From contig JAPLKC010000089.1 in the NCBI GenBank assembly GCA_026388255.1, positions 1 through 64,000 on the forward strand: a stretch of DNA of 64,000 nucleotides, read 5' to 3'. This DNA comes from Pseudomonadota bacterium (GTDB taxonomy: Bacteria; Desulfobacterota; Syntrophorhabdia; Syntrophorhabdales; Syntrophorhabdaceae). The position numbers and the translations under genes are program-made. Below the pieces are notes generated by a model, which ran no database searches, was not told the DNA's origin, and saw only the letters and a list, made by a program, of their open reading frames with translations. Positions 22,957 to 31,054 of this stretch are shown one piece after another. Within the stretch, counting starts at the first letter, position 1; every line of letters begins with the position of its first letter.

Positions 22957-23534
22957 TCCTCCGTAAGGTATTATTTAAATCCTGATCAATTCAATTTGCA
23001 GTGAATATTGTATAGCTAATTATAAAAATTACAAAGAAAAATATCTTTTATATTAAATCATATCATACGGGGTATATAAGGATTCTGCAAACACGCTGTG
23101 AGCCAATATACCGATAATCATCTATGCTTCCTCCGAACAATTCCCTCCAGAATAATTGTTTACTTATTTTCTCATCATATAACGACATAAATCAATACAA
23201 CAATTTTCGGCTTGCAATGGAAACATAATTGGAAGATAATGAATTTATGGGCAGGGGGCTGATGTTATTGGAAGCAGATTTCTTTTCATTCATAAAGTCA
23301 AAAAACAAATCAAAAAATCCTGTCATGACATCCTTTAAAACCACCTTTGCCAAATATCATATAAAAAATTATGTTCCATTTTTCTATGTAATATCAGCAA
23401 ATACCATTAAGATAAATGATTAATCTTCAATAAAGCAATATTTTGAGAGTTTTTTGTGTTGAGTATTTTGTTAAGTTTAAGAAAAAGTATATTGGTATAT
23501 TAATTGTTATGAATAAAGAATATGCGAGATAAAT
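22957..23534. other. AT-rich intergenic region before the cassette array
   Basis: 578 bp, AT-rich, separating the minus-strand malic enzyme from the plus-strand cassette genes. A 64-codon frame at 23229-23423 lacks a convincing ribosome site and resembles no family I know. GTTRRRY-like strings (GTTGAGT and GTTAAGT near 23459-23480) occur without the stem-forming sequence of an attC; an attI cannot be recognised by eye. No integrase gene is present. Confidence 0.4.
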
Positions 23535-24527
23535 ATGGAACAATTGATCTACTACCCAGGCTTTGAAATAAAAGATCACGACTGGCTCAAATTTGCGCTC
23601 CTATATATCGATGAACTTAATCCCATCATTCCTACCGCTGGTGATATTTTCCTCACTGAGTTACACCGCAAACTTACAGAAGAGACCGACCTGATTAAAC
23701 CGCACAGGCCGAACTATGAAGAGGGAATGAACGCAACCTTTGATGCCCTCGATATTGTTGAAAAGATTATTAGAAACCCATCACGCTATTTGCGATTATT
23801 CGGCACAAGCAAAATCATCGAGAAATGGCAGCAGCCAGAAAATCATAACTATACACTCTTTGAAGACAAATATACTTACGAATGGGAACAGTTTTGTAGA
23901 AATGCGAAATTGTCAACCCAGTCAGATCTTGGGATAATGCTTCCGAAAGAATTAGGCTTAATATACATGACAATTCTTGCAAATGCTATCTCTGAATCGC
24001 GAGGCATATCATCTATAACTGATTATAAGGCCTTAGATAATTTATCAATACTTATTCGTCGTACCACCGATCCTTTAAAAAAGATGAGTACTGCAAAAAG
24101 TATAATAAATTTGAAACTACCTGCTAACCTGCGAGACGTTGCTGTAGACAAAATTATTAAATTCAGAAATAGACCTCAGTTCAAAATAAAGTTAAATTCG
24201 TTTCATCAGGAGCTAAACAATTTCTTGTCGAACATCGAAGTGGGTAATACTGCATTTGATTTTATTGAATCTTATGAGCAAGTTTGGTCCGATTTTTCTG
24301 ATGAATTAGTCCAACTTGGGACAGGTATTGTTACTTTGGGTTTGGGTATCTGGATTGCTATTAGTTCTCCCGAAATCACGACTGCGAAATATTTGAAAGA
24401 GGTCGTTGCTGCTGGCACCACCCTATCTGTCGGATCATTAATTTCATTAAGGAATGCATGGAAAAAGACACAGCCAAAGAGGTTCACAAGAAAATACTTA
24501 GCTGACCTACAAAAGATAAATGATTAG
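23535..24527 (+). CDS. Hypothetical protein with C-terminal hydrophobic segments (cassette gene)
   Basis: A 330-aa protein, mostly helical and charged (about 1-250), with two weakly hydrophobic stretches near 255-300 (GTGIVTLGLGIWIAI and VVAAGTTLSVGSLI). The opening (YYPGFEIKDHDWLKFALLYID) resembles a family of uncharacterised proteins often seen near defence genes. I cannot name the family with confidence. The gene is AT-rich, unlike the GC-rich ATPase that follows. Its stop lies about 10 bp before an attC-like site, as expected of an integron cassette gene. The SD is weak. Confidence 0.7.
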   Translation: MEQLIYYPGFEIKDHDWLKFALLYIDELNPIIPTAGDIFLTELHRKLTEETDLIKPHRPNYEEGMNATFDALDIVEKIIRNPSRYLRLFGTSKIIEKWQQPENHNYTLFEDKYTYEWEQFCRNAKLSTQSDLGIMLPKELGLIYMTILANAISESRGISSITDYKALDNLSILIRRTTDPLKKMSTAKSIINLKLPANLRDVAVDKIIKFRNRPQFKIKLNSFHQELNNFLSNIEVGNTAFDFIESYEQVWSDFSDELVQLGTGIVTLGLGIWIAISSPEITTAKYLKEVVAAGTTLSVGSLISLRNAWKKTQPKRFTRKYLADLQKIND

Positions 24528-24536
24528 TAAAGGGAT

Positions 24537-24601
24537 TCATAACCAAGGCATGCAGCTAATCGGCCTGAAATCAGGCCTCTCGCTGATGCCCGGTGTTAGC
24601 T
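24537..24601 (+). repeat. attC-like site a
   Basis: The left core resembles RYYYAAC (TCATAAC) and the right core is GTTAGCT (24595-24601). L'' GGCATGCAGC (24547-24556) pairs with L' GCTGATGCC(C) (24582-24591), leaving one G unpaired. The central hairpin GGCCTGA/TCAGGCC is perfect. It is about 85% identical to site c at 27658-27721. Confidence 0.75.
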
Positions 24602-24656
24602 TTCACTGATCTCAAACCAAACGACCCAGCTTGTGGTCGAAGGAGAAGGTCCTCTG

Positions 24657-27257
24657 ATGATACTTCAAGAAATACTAAGATGGTCGGAAGGGCTTCCGGA
24701 ATGGCAGAGCGATGCTATAGCCCGACTGCTTGCAAGGCAGGCTCTCGTGCCAGGCGATGTTGACGATTTGTTCGCGCTGCTAAAAGCAGAACATGGCGTC
24801 CCTGACCCGAAGGGTCGCAAGCCGAACCGGCTTACTGCTGACCAGATTCCTGCGCCGCTCGAGGTTTCGACGCACGTCGAGTTGCGTGCCATGAAGAACT
24901 TGCGACATGTAAATGCAATTGCTGAGAAGCAGGTTCTGCCATTTGGCGCTTCCGGACTTACCGTCATTTACGGCGACAACGGTTCGGGCAAGTCAGGATA
25001 TTCCCGCGTGCTTAAGCGTGCTTGTCGTGCACGCGACCAAATGGAAGTGATTCACCCAAACGCCAACGCCCCCACTGGCACCGCGACCGTTGCCGAAGCG
25101 GTGTTTGAGATCGCCGTCAACGGTGCTACGCGGGATGTGCTCTGGACCAATGGGAAGCCAGCGCCTTCCGAACTATCATCACTTGCGATCTTCGATTCCC
25201 GTTGTGCCCGTGCTTACCTGGACAGCGAAGATGACTTCTCATACGTACCTTACGGGCTCGATGTTTTTGAGGGGCTGGCGAAAGTCTGCCGACAACTAAA
25301 AACCATGATCGAGACGGAGCAGGCGCACTCAAATGTCGATCTTACTGCATTCGTATCGCTACACGGCGACACAGCGGTCGGCAAACTGATTGCAGCCCTG
25401 TCCGCCAAGACAACGGCGGCCCAGATTGAGACGTTGGCTTCGCTGACACCTGAAGAACTGACCCAGCATGCCGAATTGGACAAGAGTCTGAAGGAAAACA
25501 ACCCGAAAGAGAAAGCTAATCAGTTACGCTTACAAGCACGTCGGATCGCCACCATAGCCACGAATGCTACCAAGCAAGGCACCCTGATGGATCAGACAGT
25601 GATTGCTAAGCTGCGAGACCTATCGGACGGCTATCACGCTGCACAAGCAGCATCGGTGCTTGCCGCAAAGCAATTCAAGGAAAGTGAAAATCTCCTTGCG
25701 GGCACCGGTGGCGAAGCGTGGCGTGAGCTGTTTGATGCCGCCCGTAAGTTTGCGCTCGAATCCCACCCGGAAAAGAGGTTCCCGGAACTAGGAGCGGATG
25801 CTGCTTGCCCACTCTGTCAGCAACCGCTCGCTGAGGGTGCGGCGCGTTTGGTGCGCTTCGAAGAATTCATCCAACAGGATGCAGAGAAAACCACTCAGGA
25901 ACGTCGCAACGCTCTGTCTACCGAGTACGAGCCTTTTGCCGCGTACGTCTTAACACTAAGCCTTGACGATGTGACCTATGGTGAAATTGAGGCCATCGAT
26001 CCACAGCTTGCTGTTGACGTACGCACCTTTGAACAGGCGTTGACTGCCCGCCATGAAGCCATCAAACGGTCTGTGGCCTCCCATCAGTGGGATGACGCCA
26101 ACCAGGCTTTGATTAGTCCAGCAGCCCGGCTTCAGACACTCGCTGACAAGCTGAATGGCGAAGCCGAAACCTTTGAGAAGGCTGCGGACGAAAATGCCCG
26201 TGCCGCAATGCAAAAACAACTGAGTGAGCTTGATGCGAGGGTGCGGTTACGTCAGGTCAAGAACGCTGTCATCACGGCCGTGGACGGTCTCAAGCACAAA
26301 GCCAAGCTCACGCAATGCCTGTCAGCGGTCAAGACGAATGCCATTTCCTTAAAGGCATCGGAGTTAGCCGAGAAAGTCGTGTCAAAGGAGCTAGCCCGGG
26401 CACTCAACGGGGAGTTCAAGACACTGGGCGTCGGCACGCTCAGTGTCTCATTGCAAAGCCGTTCAGACAAAGGCAAGGCGTTGCACAAGCTCAAGCTAGA
26501 ACTGCCACAAAGTCGTAGCCCCGGTGAAATCTTAAGCGAGGGAGAGCAGCGGGCCATAGCCATCGGGTCCTTTCTCGCCGAAATTGGTCTAACTGGCGGC
26601 AAGGGCGGTATCGTATTCGATGATCCGGTCTCTTCGCTGGATCATCGAATACGCGAGCGCGTAGCGAAGCGTTTGGCGGTGGAGGCCGCTCAGCGCCAGG
26701 TGATCGTCTTCACTCATGAGATCTACTTTCTCTGCGTCCTCGTGGAGGAAGCAGAGGCAGCAGGTGTTCCGGTTTCAACCCAGAGTCTGACCCGCCGCGC
26801 GGAAGGGTTCGGTATAGCTGACCCGGAACTCCCATTCGAAGGCAAAAACGCCAGCAAGCGGATCGGTGCGCTAAAAGCCCAGCACCAGCTCATTGCTAAG
26901 TTGTACAAAAACGGCGAAGAACAGGAGTATCGGAAGCAGACTATGGATGCCTACGTTCATCTGCGCATGGCTTGGGAGCGGGCCGTCGAAGAAGTGCTGC
27001 TGCGCAAGGTGGTTTTACGCTTTCGCAAGGGTATCGAAACGCAACGACTGGCCGAGGTCATTGTTGATGATGGTGACTATGCACAGGTTGACGCCGGTAT
27101 GAAGAAGTGCTCAAACTACGCGCACGACAAGGCCCTCTTGGGGGGAGTAGCGGTGCCTGAACCTGAGGAGTTATTCGCTGACATTATGGCACTGGAAACT
27201 TGGCGGAATGATATTGAGAAAAGAAGCAAGGACACCGCGAAACGTCGAAAAGGTTGA
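24657..27257 (+). CDS. RloC/PrrC-like ABC-type ATPase, putative anticodon nuclease (defence)
   Basis: An 866-aa protein with a split ABC/SMC-type ATPase: Walker A GDNGSGKS near 105, signature LSEGEQRA near 626 and Walker B IVFDDPVSSLD near 650. Helical arms carry a zinc-hook-like CPLC near 383. The C-terminal domain has R770-x3-E774 and His823, matching the Arg-x3-Glu...His triad reported for PrrC/RloC anticodon nucleases. It probably senses phage or DNA damage and cleaves tRNA; this is inferred. The start is ATG 24657 with AGGAG at good spacing. GC content is far above the neighbours, and attC-like sites flank it, indicating transfer as a cassette. Confidence 0.8.
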   Translation: MILQEILRWSEGLPEWQSDAIARLLARQALVPGDVDDLFALLKAEHGVPDPKGRKPNRLTADQIPAPLEVSTHVELRAMKNLRHVNAIAEKQVLPFGASGLTVIYGDNGSGKSGYSRVLKRACRARDQMEVIHPNANAPTGTATVAEAVFEIAVNGATRDVLWTNGKPAPSELSSLAIFDSRCARAYLDSEDDFSYVPYGLDVFEGLAKVCRQLKTMIETEQAHSNVDLTAFVSLHGDTAVGKLIAALSAKTTAAQIETLASLTPEELTQHAELDKSLKENNPKEKANQLRLQARRIATIATNATKQGTLMDQTVIAKLRDLSDGYHAAQAASVLAAKQFKESENLLAGTGGEAWRELFDAARKFALESHPEKRFPELGADAACPLCQQPLAEGAARLVRFEEFIQQDAEKTTQERRNALSTEYEPFAAYVLTLSLDDVTYGEIEAIDPQLAVDVRTFEQALTARHEAIKRSVASHQWDDANQALISPAARLQTLADKLNGEAETFEKAADENARAAMQKQLSELDARVRLRQVKNAVITAVDGLKHKAKLTQCLSAVKTNAISLKASELAEKVVSKELARALNGEFKTLGVGTLSVSLQSRSDKGKALHKLKLELPQSRSPGEILSEGEQRAIAIGSFLAEIGLTGGKGGIVFDDPVSSLDHRIRERVAKRLAVEAAQRQVIVFTHEIYFLCVLVEEAEAAGVPVSTQSLTRRAEGFGIADPELPFEGKNASKRIGALKAQHQLIAKLYKNGEEQEYRKQTMDAYVHLRMAWERAVEEVLLRKVVLRFRKGIETQRLAEVIVDDGDYAQVDAGMKKCSNYAHDKALLGGVAVPEPEELFADIMALETWRNDIEKRSKDTAKRRKG

Positions 27258-27289
27258 AGCTCGTCATCTCTATGTGTTTTATAGAGGAG

Positions 27290-27357
27290 AGCTAACAAAT
27301 GCATGGAGCGGATCGGCAGGAAACGGCACCTGCCTTCCGCTCATGCTGCTGTTGGAA
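27290..27357 (+). repeat. attC-like site b
   Basis: Left core AGCTAAC, right core GTTGGAA. L'' GCATGGAGCGGA (27301-27312) pairs with TCCGCTCATGC (27336-27346) with one unpaired G. A smaller stem GGCAGG/CCTGCC is in the centre. It begins 33 bp after the ATPase stop codon. Confidence 0.65.
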
Positions 27358-27424
27358 CCATATTATAGGAAATAAATTCATTTTCTGATTATTTCCGGCA
27401 ACTATGGATACTGTGTTTGCAACA

Positions 27425-27447
27425 TTTGTTACAACAGTTGTAACAAA
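27425..27447. promoter_or_regulatory. Perfect 11-bp dyad in the non-coding cassette
   Basis: Perfect inverted repeat TTTGTTACAAC/GTTGTAACAAA around a single A. Such a dyad with a tiny loop suits a dimeric DNA-binding protein better than an RNA hairpin. The binder is unknown. Confidence 0.4.
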
Positions 27448-27498
27448 AAGTAAATATTCTGTAGACCAAGGACTGGCTTTGCTTTGAGCTATGAAACC

Positions 27499-27527
27499 TT
27501 TTTTGCGTCCAATTTGGACGCAAAAAA
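27499..27527. terminator. Bidirectional hairpin terminator
   Basis: A perfect 12-bp stem TTTTTTGCGTCC/GGACGCAAAAAA with a 5-nt loop. On the plus strand the stem ends in an A run; read from the minus strand it ends in a T run, and the A/T tracts make it usable both ways. It could insulate the cassette. Confidence 0.55.
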
Positions 27528-27657
27528 TAATAACTACTATGAATTATTAATTTAATGTCTACCAATAAAAACATAGAGACAAAAAACGAAATAAAAAATA
27601 TAATGAAATACAAAGACATTAAAAGGTAAAGAATCGAAGACAAAACGCATAGAAGCG

Positions 27658-27721
27658 TTCCAACAAATGCGTGCAGCCAATCGGCCTGAAATCAGGCCTC
27701 TCGCTGACGCCAGTGTTAGGT
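27658..27721 (+). repeat. attC-like site c
   Basis: Left core TTCCAAC, right core GTTAGGT (27715-27721, a full GTTRRRY match). L'' TGCGTGCAGC pairs with GCTGACGCCA with one unpaired G. The central hairpin GGCCTGA/TCAGGCC is identical to site a. It is the best match to the attC pattern, with site e. Confidence 0.8.
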
Positions 27722-27777
27722 CCAGGATTAAGACAGAGACAACGCTGGCCTATGAGAAATAGATTGAAAGAATAATT

Positions 27778-28368
27778 ATGAAATCAGACTATCTCATAAA
27801 ATTAGGTGATTCAATGAATTTTGCTGCTGGTATCCCTCAAGAGGAACAGGATAAACTATTGAAGCGGTTAAATTCAATCACTATCAGGAAAGACGAGTAT
27901 TTTTTGAGGGCCGGAGAAGTCCCCCAAAGAATAGGTTTTAATGTGTCTGGCTTAATGCGCCTTTTCTATATTGACAGTAACGGGACAGAACGCATAAAGC
28001 ATTTTTGCATTGAAAACACCCTAGCTATCTCGTACAGCGCATTTTTACTGAGAGAAGAATCAAAATTATATATCCAGGCAATAGAAGATACAAAACTCCT
28101 TACCATAAATTACGAAACCTACTGCGAAATCCTGGACAGCCATGCATGTTGGCAGACAGTATTAAGAAAGTTTGCTGAACTGTTGTATATCATCAAAGAA
28201 AAAAGAGAACACGAATTTTTAATGAATAGCGCGCAAGAAAGATATTTACAATTTCTGGAAGACTATCCGAATATTAAAGAGAGATTAAACAATTATCATA
28301 TTGCATCATATCTTGGAATTACCCCCGAATCACTGAGTAGAATTCGCACAAATTTAAAGCAAAATTAA
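27778..28368 (+). CDS. Crp/Fnr-family transcriptional regulator
   Basis: A 196-aa protein. A cyclic-nucleotide-binding-like beta-roll spans about 20-120 (LRAGEVPQRIGFNVSGLMRLF; the Arg-Ser cyclic-AMP cassette is absent, so cAMP binding is unlikely). A helix-turn-helix follows (about 165-190, HIASYLGITPESLSRIR). No Fnr-type cysteine set is present. It is the first gene of a three-gene cassette with a small membrane protein and a short-chain dehydrogenase, which it probably regulates. Composition is AT-rich. The start has an AAAGAATAATT leader without a strong SD. Confidence 0.85.
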   Translation: MKSDYLIKLGDSMNFAAGIPQEEQDKLLKRLNSITIRKDEYFLRAGEVPQRIGFNVSGLMRLFYIDSNGTERIKHFCIENTLAISYSAFLLREESKLYIQAIEDTKLLTINYETYCEILDSHACWQTVLRKFAELLYIIKEKREHEFLMNSAQERYLQFLEDYPNIKERLNNYHIASYLGITPESLSRIRTNLKQN

Positions 28369-29519: not shown

Positions 29520-29576
29520 AACCAACAATCTGATGCAGGCGATTCCTTACAGTCGCGGCTGATCATGGTGTTGGGC
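29520..29576 (+). repeat. attC-like site d
   Basis: Left core AACCAAC, right core GTTGGGC (29570-29576, full GTTRRRY match). TGATGCAG on the left pairs with CTGATCA on the right with one unpaired G. A GCGA/TCGC step extends the stem. At 57 bp it is the shortest site in the array. Confidence 0.7.
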
Positions 29577-29715: not shown

Positions 29716-30042
29716 ATGAGATATACCATTGAGTACTTTAATCCGTATGTAAGAGAAGAAATTGAGGATTGGCCCGCCGACGTTCTGGCCGACTATGCGC
29801 GAATTGTAGAGTTGCTCATGGAGTTCGGGCCACATTTACGTATGCCACATTCACGAGCTATGGGGGATGGGTTATTTGAATTGAGGCCTCGAAGTTCTGA
29901 AGGTATTGGAAGAGTATTCTATTGTTTCATGATAAATCAACGCATCGTGATACTTCATGCATTTATCAAAAAGACACGAGAAACCCCAAAAAGAGAATTA
30001 AAGCTGGCCCGTAAAAGAATGAAGGAGGTTAAAAATGACTGA
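29716..30042 (+). CDS. HigB-like toxin (RelE/phage Gp49 superfamily)
   Basis: A 108-aa protein of the Gp49-like/RelE fold. It has the typical stretch GDGLFELRPRSSEGIGRVFYCF and a basic C-terminus after a KKTRETPKRELKLARKR segment. Such toxins cleave mRNA on the ribosome. It precedes and overlaps by 8 bp an HTH antitoxin, the reversed toxin-first order of HigBA systems. Both lie between attC-like sites d and e, so this is a toxin-antitoxin cassette with its own promoter. Confidence 0.88.
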   Translation: MRYTIEYFNPYVREEIEDWPADVLADYARIVELLMEFGPHLRMPHSRAMGDGLFELRPRSSEGIGRVFYCFMINQRIVILHAFIKKTRETPKRELKLARKRMKEVKND

Positions 30043-30397
30043 CATTAAATACGATCCTGTGTCTCACGACCATGAGGCATTCTTGAATAAGGCCAGGAAG
30101 CGTCAAGGTTTTCGCGAAGCGTATGACAACTTAGAGGAAGAATATATGCTTGTTCGTGAGATGCTGTCTGCCCGCTCAGAGTCCGGTCTCACACAAGAAG
30201 CTGTTGCAGAACTGATGGGTACCACTAAGAGTGCAGTATCACGTCTGGAATCAGCGGGCAAACATGCTCCGTCAATTACAACGCTCAAGAGGTATGCGAA
30301 AGCCGTTGGTTGTGATCTGCAAATCAAGTTAGTTCCTAAAAACAGCCCAACAAGGCGCTCCACCCAATCGGCAACAAAAGACGTTGCCTCTGGGTGA
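30035..30397 (+). CDS. HigA-like HTH antitoxin
   Basis: A 120-aa XRE-family protein. The helix-turn-helix at about 50-85 (GLTQEAVAELMGTTKSAVSRLE) gives autoregulatory DNA binding, and the N-terminal part likely neutralises the toxin. It overlaps the toxin gene by 8 bp, and GGAGG lies before its ATG. The last ~17 codons are written by the attC-like site e: the body of the protein ends near KLVPKN and the tail (SPTRRS...) is recombination-site sequence. The stop codon lies inside the site. Confidence 0.88.
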   Translation: MTDIKYDPVSHDHEAFLNKARKRQGFREAYDNLEEEYMLVREMLSARSESGLTQEAVAELMGTTKSAVSRLESAGKHAPSITTLKRYAKAVGCDLQIKLVPKNSPTRRSTQSATKDVASG

Positions 30398-30411
30398 GCT
30401 TTGTGTTATGC
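30345..30411 (+). repeat. attC-like site e
   Basis: Left core GCCCAAC (30345-30351, full RYYYAAC match), right core GTTATGC (30405-30411). GCTCCACCC pairs with GGGTGAGC with one unpaired C. The central hairpin is GGCAAC/GTTGCC. It overlaps the 3' end of the antitoxin gene. Confidence 0.8.
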
Positions 30412-30424
30412 CATGAAAAGGGCA

Positions 30425-30462
30425 TTGACTACCACATTTAAAGTACGTTATAATGTACGTTA
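30425..30462 (+). promoter_or_regulatory. Promoter and repeated operator of the Phd/ParE cassette
   Basis: TTGACT (30425-30430), an 18-bp spacer and a perfect TATAAT (30449-30454). GTACGTTA occurs twice in direct order (30443-30450 and 30455-30462), 12 bp apart and covering the -10 box. This is the layout of an autorepressed toxin-antitoxin promoter. Confidence 0.65.
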
Positions 30463-30479
30463 TTTATGTGAGGTGCTAT

Positions 30480-30761
30480 ATGAAAAGACTCAGAGTCAAT
30501 GAAGATATCCGGCCAATGTCGGAGTTTCGCACTGGCATTGCATCCTTCCTCAAACAGATACACGATACAAAGCGCCCACTCATCATCACACAGCATGGGA
30601 AAGGTGTGGCTGTTTTGCTCGACGCAGGCGAATATGAAGCTATGCAAGAGAGAATTGAATTACTTCAAGACATACAGACATCTATTGGTCAGATAGAAGC
30701 TGGTCAGGGAATTGACCATGAAAATGCCAAGACCACCTTATTGAAACAGATCAGAGAATGA
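30480..30761 (+). CDS. Phd/YefM-family antitoxin
   Basis: A 93-aa antitoxin. The N-terminal Phd/YefM fold (MSEFRTGIASFLKQIHDTKRPLIITQHGKGVAVLLD) binds DNA as a dimer, and the helical C-terminus wraps the toxin. The start is set at ATG 30480, which has GAGGTG 6 bp upstream; an earlier ATG at 30453 lies inside the -10 region. It overlaps the ParE-like toxin by 4 bp (ATGA), so the pair is translationally coupled. The upstream GTACGTTA repeats are its likely operator. Confidence 0.9.
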   Translation: MKRLRVNEDIRPMSEFRTGIASFLKQIHDTKRPLIITQHGKGVAVLLDAGEYEAMQERIELLQDIQTSIGQIEAGQGIDHENAKTTLLKQIRE

Positions 30762-31054
30762 AAATCATCTGGTCTCCCGTTGCAATGGACAGAGTCTCAG
30801 AGATAGCAGGGTACATAGCACAGGAAAATCCGGTTGCTGCAAAAAGTTGGATAGAAACAGTTTTTCAAAGAGTGGGTGAACTGAAAGTATTTCCTGAGAG
30901 CGGTCGCGTTGTGCCGGAAACCGACAGTGAAACTATAAGAGAACTGATATATGGCAACTACCGAATAATCTACCGGTTGGAAGAAAAGAGGATTTCCGTG
31001 CTTACCGTTCGTCACGGGAAGCAGATATTGCCGGTGGATGAAATCGTGGTATAA
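30758..31054 (+). CDS. ParE/RelE-family toxin
   Basis: A 98-aa toxin of the ParE/RelE superfamily with the usual pattern: WSPVAMDRVSEIAGYIA helix, then FPESGRVVPE, then RELIYGNYRIIYRLE and a terminal VRHGKQ. ParE members inhibit DNA gyrase and RelE members cut mRNA; the sequence style (IYRL...VRHGKQILP) is more ParE-like. It is coupled to the antitoxin by a 4-bp overlap. A degenerate attC-like site follows directly at its stop codon. Confidence 0.9.
   Translation: MKIIWSPVAMDRVSEIAGYIAQENPVAAKSWIETVFQRVGELKVFPESGRVVPETDSETIRELIYGNYRIIYRLEEKRISVLTVRHGKQILPVDEIVV

Follow-up and report, generated by a model that had tools for sequence, protein, structure and literature searches.

The window, that is, the whole 64,000-nucleotide stretch of DNA analysed here, contains an integron cassette array in which an intact open reading frame of 866 amino acids lies at 24657-27257, running from an ATG at 24657 to a stop at 27257 (translation might instead begin at a GTG in the same frame, 24 nt further upstream). 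An earlier sequence-only reading had taken this gene for a cassette-borne relative of RloC and PrrC with a candidate nuclease triad, and the positions that it gave for the frame, the CPLC motif, R770-x3-E774 and H823 are all correct. The features of the region are given below; bit scores of attC sites refer to a covariance model, R1, for which 11 attC sites in the host genome served as the training set.

23388-23508: leader of about 125 bp before the first cassette, ending at a GTT junction
23535-24527: 330-aa ORF of the upstream cassette; weak DUF6236 match, no confident family
24537..24601, + strand: attC of the upstream cassette, whose R' forms the left junction; 67.7 bits (training-set site)
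24596..27351, + strand: integron gene cassette of 2,756 bp holding the CDS; R''/R' match; GC 0.549
24657..27257, + strand: CDS, 866 aa, RloC-like ABC ATPase with a predicted C-terminal HEPN-like domain (PDC-S06; PADLOC, Pfam)
24972..24995, + strand: Walker A GDNGSGKS, residues 106-113; G106, N108, G111, K112 and S113 invariant (n=50 sequences)
25806..25817, + strand: zinc-hook-like CPLC, residues 384-387, with long predicted helices on either side; CxxC in all homologues displayed
26532..26549, + strand: ABC signature LSEGEQ, residues 626-631
26610..26642, + strand: Walker B and D-loop, residues 652-662
26715..26717, + strand: H-loop histidine H687; FTH/LTH in all displayed homologues covering the position
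26850..27254, + strand: putative HEPN-like domain, residues 732-866 (AlphaFold2 domain model; weak Foldseek matches; topology as in PMC3710099)
26964..26978, + strand: R770-x3-E774 in predicted helix 2; invariant in the C-terminal alignment
27105..27125, + strand: K817-x5-H823, resembling the HEPN R/Kx4-6H motif, at the end of predicted helix 3 and in the following loop; H823 invariant, 817 Lys or Arg
27290..27357, + strand: the RloC-like cassette's own attC, 32 nt after the stop; 56.6 bits (training-set site); R''/R' match
27658..27721, + strand: attC of the following cassette (27352-27715), which apparently lacks a gene; 74.1 bits (training-set site); R''/R' match

The cassette and its array

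The gene at 24657-27257 lies in a genuine integron cassette. Once a cassette is integrated, its attC has an R'' box complementary to the R' box at the leading junction. Independently of model R1, the R'' box AGCTAAC at 27290 is the exact reverse complement of the R' box GTTAGCT at 24595, and because these boxes pair exactly, the borders of the cassette are placed at 24596-27351. Within the window, R1 gives 56.6-74.1 bits to 24537-24601, 27290-27357, 27658-27721 and 30345-30411, each of which belongs to its training set, and 24.8 bits to 29520-29576, which does not; genome-wide, it gives 52 matches at E<=0.1 across many contigs, training sites counted. Exact R''/R' pairing holds at four of the five window sites (the remaining pairs are TCATAAC with GTTATGA at 23506, TTCCAAC with GTTGGAA at 27351 and GCCCAAC with GTTGGGC at 29570) and fails for the site at 29520. 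Chance resemblance to attC was considered and dismissed, since four of five sites match their upstream junction exactly. The flanking sites, described as attC-like in the sequence-only reading, are thus genuine attC sites, with scores of 67.7 and 56.6 bits (both training-set sites) and exact R''/R' pairing. The high GC content that had also been pointed out holds, being 0.549 in the cassette against 0.382 and 0.338 in the adjacent ones and 0.451 in the window. A search of Rfam over the cassette region gave no match.

Copies of the leader at 23388-23508, about 80% identical to it, are found on G000:C85, G000:C135 and G001:C64, with attC sites following those on C85 and C64 and none seen in the short C135 stretch; the leader may represent a dispersed attI-like array head. 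Upstream of our gene, the 330-aa ORF was considered as a partner and dropped, no relative of it being found beside homologues. Downstream, no ORF reaching 70 aa lies on the + strand of the 364-bp cassette at 27352-27715; from other integrons, cassettes that lack a gene but have promoter activity are known (PMC11014356). All window neighbours of the CDS are separate cassettes or other genes, with no type I restriction-modification (R-M) linkage. The array region also contains two toxin-antitoxin pairs, Gp49-like/HTH at 29716-30397 and Phd-YefM/ParE at 30453-31054, the second of which may be followed by attC-like remains.

No intI gene was seen adjoining the array. Of the intI homologues in the genome, the two that match best (G000:C45:2251-3193 and G000:C53:12258-13195) are broken by stop codons or shifts of frame; on C53, attC sites lie on the same strand as intI, beyond its 3' end. 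Promoter-like sites across 23200-27800 stand near the shuffle mean, with no clear excess over shuffled sequences. Since no adjoining intI was seen and promoter-like sites do not clearly exceed shuffles, the gene may be silent in its host.

Domain architecture and the predicted active site

In the 866-aa protein, the ABC ATPase head is of the Rad50 type and is divided by a long predicted coiled coil bearing a CxxC of the zinc-hook kind. Pfam assigns it to AAA_13 (81 bits), and two PADLOC models of PDC-S06 match it, PDLC04891 at 742 bits over residues 2-857 and PDLC04893 at 559 bits. The full-length AlphaFold2 model (pLDDT 78.8, pTM 0.53) finds its best fold matches among SMC and Rad50 heads; a search of solved structures with the full sequence returned only ABC-type or chance matches, Rad50 being the best.

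A separate AlphaFold2 model of the C-terminal domain (pLDDT 79.6, pTM 0.75) is a helical bundle, in which helix 1 (732-751) is followed by helix 2 (755-781), holding R770 and E774, a low-confidence loop, helix 3 (805-819), a loop containing H823, and helix 4 (836-865). HEPN domains are four-helix bundles with an acidic residue in helix 2 and an Rx4-6H motif at the end of helix 3 (PMC3710099), a layout with which the modelled domain agrees, so placed that the triad would sit where HEPN active sites lie. Foldseek gave no match to the domain model at E<=0.001 (best E 0.12); its weak best matches include 2hsb, 1wol, 1ufb, 1o3u, AbiV 9bj6 and the HepT chains of 7bxo, 6m6w, 6m6u and 5yep, intermixed with designed and other four-helix bundles. 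Among these, 1ufb and 5yep are HEPN proteins. None of the Pfam HEPN models matches the domain, any Pfam model matches at most one of 24 members, and a search of solved structures with the domain sequence found none.

As regards membership of the HEPN superfamily, the model thus has the four-helix layout, the Foldseek E-values are non-significant and position 817 is mostly lysine. The non-significant E-values and the absent Pfam HEPN match count against a reading of the protein as RloC-like and HEPN-bearing. On balance, a HEPN-like nature of the C-terminal domain is moderately supported by the modelled structure; with a four-helix bundle, HEPN chains prominent among the weak matches and a HEPN-like placement of the triad, the nuclease proposal of the sequence-only reading stands.

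Relatives, conservation and spread

We gathered 40 relatives from species genomes at 53-79% identity (loci are designated by L numbers) and seven from viral contigs at 28-66% identity, the latter by an alignment-based scan; scanning viral contigs with the single protein gave none, and a search of phage records for direct relatives found none. Matches were also present in 267 plasmid records, always below 60% identity. R770 and E774 are identical in all 39 sequences reaching that region, and H823 is kept in 38 of these; only L024 departs, its reading frame being shifted from about residue 793 onwards. In the C-terminal alignment (24 sequences, identity down to 25%), only 9 of 171 columns are invariant, with R770, E774 and H823 among the nine. 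As judged from the aligned sequences, conservation of the triad exceeds chance, and its persistence down to 25% identity is in keeping with the residues originally singled out. Position 817 is Lys or Arg in the aligned homologues, mostly Lys, giving K/R-x5-H, and in two staphylococcal plasmid relatives LR-x3-E is retained, as is a His in the corresponding position. Besides the frameshifted L024, one further relative is broken (L038, six stops).

No conserved partner gene was found across the neighbourhoods of 47 loci, in which no neighbour cluster is common to more than nine, in agreement with the claim that the gene stands alone. BREX genes adjoin L061 and L070, and L027 has a type I R-M neighbourhood; these neighbours may be counted in favour of an RloC-like defence function. 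One 30% relative (L063) lies on Klebsiella michiganensis plasmid pMX581-77k near the efflux genes tmexC2-tmexD2-toprJ2, and many Klebsiella and Pseudomonas plasmids carry relatives of equal score.

The distribution of the gene is sporadic. At E<=1e-20, the one same-genus genome gave no match, nor did 34 of the 35 same-family genomes searched, and at E<=1e-100 only 3 of 395 genomes of the phylum match, host included; in the same-genus genome, the left flank runs on into other genes where the host's array starts. The boundary heptamer AGCTAAC/GTTAGCT is found exactly in five homologous loci, from Halomonas (L012), Pseudohongiella (L013), a gammaproteobacterial MAG (L016), Oceanobacter (L018) and Marinomonas (L031, where the heptamer is exact but the attC hairpin poor), and boundaries that look similar by eye, with no exact match, occur in L038 and L017. 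On a rough, unfinished tree, the cassette-borne copies need 3 label changes versus 7.6 in shuffles. Cassette-borne copies are under purifying selection, with dN/dS of 0.13-0.15 between pairs. The host probably acquired the gene horizontally, and the gene would be mobile as one integron cassette; its cassette nature, already suggested earlier, is borne out by the attC sites and the matching boundary boxes.

Proposed function and comparison with known systems

The reading that we favour, with a probability of roughly two in three, is that the gene encodes a stand-alone RloC-like abortive-infection RNase, controlled by its ATPase and hook, whose triad would cut tRNA anticodon loops or other RNA. 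By analogy with RloC (PMC2610378), the ATPase and zinc hook would keep the C-terminal RNase inactive until phage-induced DNA damage or DNA interference is sensed; the R770/E774/H823 site would then cleave tRNA anticodon loops (or another RNA), translation would stop and the infection would be aborted. We infer the RNase activity, in particular that of an anticodon nuclease, as well as the RNA target, the trigger, the defence phenotype and the expression of the protein.

The closest competitor is an ABC-HEPN RNase with the same active site and regulation, directed against mRNA, rRNA or phage RNA instead of the anticodon loop. The HEPN superfamily includes both tRNA and mRNA nucleases (PMC3710099), and because the C-terminal domain has no detectable profile similarity to PrrC, the target specificity of PrrC is not transferable to it; nevertheless, in both its zinc hook and its R-x3-E-x36-52-H spacing the protein agrees with what is published on RloC, a proven tRNase (PMC2610378), and we regard another target as rather unlikely. 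It is improbable that the cassette is a mere passenger, silent or in decay, that serves no purpose in the host today: the lack of any intI found next to the array, the interrupted intI homologues, the promoter-like sites near the shuffle mean and the broken copies L038 (6 stops) and L024 (frameshift) would fit such a state, but the ORF is intact in the host and dN/dS is 0.13-0.15 in cassette-borne copies elsewhere. Less probable by far is a Rad50/SbcC-like DNA-repair ATPase devoid of nuclease activity; SMC and Rad50 heads are indeed the best full-length fold matches, yet Rad50/SbcC proteins lack such a C-terminal domain (PMC2610378), which is here retained with an invariant triad.

Compared with the published description of RloC, the RloC-like reading finds its features in the ABC ATPase, with Walker A, signature, Walker B/D-loop and linchpin His, in the CxxC (here CPLC, 384-387) within the coiled-coil insert that splits it, and in a linkage to R-M systems that is only rare in both. 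RloC proteins measure 658-897 aa and carry a C-terminal R-x3-E-x36-52-H (PMC2610378, Davidov and Kaufmann 2008), ranges that include both the 866 aa and the x48 of R770-x3-E774-x48-H823; length is thus not a real departure from RloC, as size and motif spacing fall inside its published definition, and the earlier statement that the protein is longer and differs elsewhere does not hold in this respect. RloC is further marked by a wobble-excising, zinc-responsive tRNase activity. A difference lies in the roughly 70 residues preceding the ATPase domain. These mark a longer form of PDC-S06: the shorter PADLOC model PDLC04886 begins at the ATPase domain (where its best stretch covers it), and the N-terminal stretch is missing from L111, a PDC-S06 relative of 792 aa in which CPFC and LR-x3-E are present and whose alignment to the family lies chiefly in the ATPase part. 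We consider it possible, albeit on the doubtful side, that the long form is an ABC-HEPN RNase branch apart from RloC and PrrC, with a sensor of its own, formed by the conserved helical stretch N-terminal to the ATPase, and its own RNA target, and that it spreads among distantly related bacteria in an integron cassette of unusual size.

With PrrC (aligned from 2 copies in genomes of the host's phylum, 9 in viral contigs and 6 in plasmids), the protein shares ABC ATPase homology, hhalign aligning residues 626-730 with the PrrC ATPase at E 4.6e-7, and R-x3-E with a later His. In contrast, PrrC is shorter (about 350-460 aa), all six plasmid PrrC copies read sit inside type I R-M operons, and the nuclease domains show no detectable similarity, hhalign of the C-terminal domains giving no alignment (probability 0.4%). 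Of the original designation RloC/PrrC-like, the RloC half is therefore retained and the PrrC half set aside: the features of RloC are present, and 'RloC-like' fits better than 'PrrC-like' because the nuclease domain has no detectable profile similarity to PrrC. HEPN toxins (HepT of MntA-HepT and the integron-cassette HEPN 3jrt) resemble the modelled C-terminal domain in their four helices, the acidic residue in helix 2 and the basic-x5-His closing helix 3, and differ in that the structural match is weak and the domain is here fused to a large ATPase.

Overall, the interpretation of the sequence-only reading is supported, for a gene already catalogued as PDC-S06; of the two outcomes named there as refuting it, an unrelated C-terminal fold and a lack of conservation of the three residues, neither came about. 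To that family, a candidate in PADLOC for which no functional test turned up in the literature searched, the protein is alike over its full-length profile, with no difference in sequence. The partial literature searched gave no report of an RloC-like or anticodon-nuclease integron cassette. If active, the gene would extend the defence genes carried and exchanged by integrons to RloC-like nucleases that arrest translation; cassettes of one kind occur in the host and in several Gammaproteobacteria, marine ones and others, and the exact borders of the present cassette make it a ready unit for cloning and testing. Phage-defence cassettes of chromosomal and mobile integrons are published (Darracq 2025, Kieffer 2025 and Getz 2025, cited in PMC12409362), and like these the present one is a single defence gene, here a candidate, inside an attC-bounded cassette. 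With PDC-S06 catalogued, RloC characterised and integron defence cassettes described, the gene is an example of an RloC-related family already known as a candidate for phage defence, not a new system.
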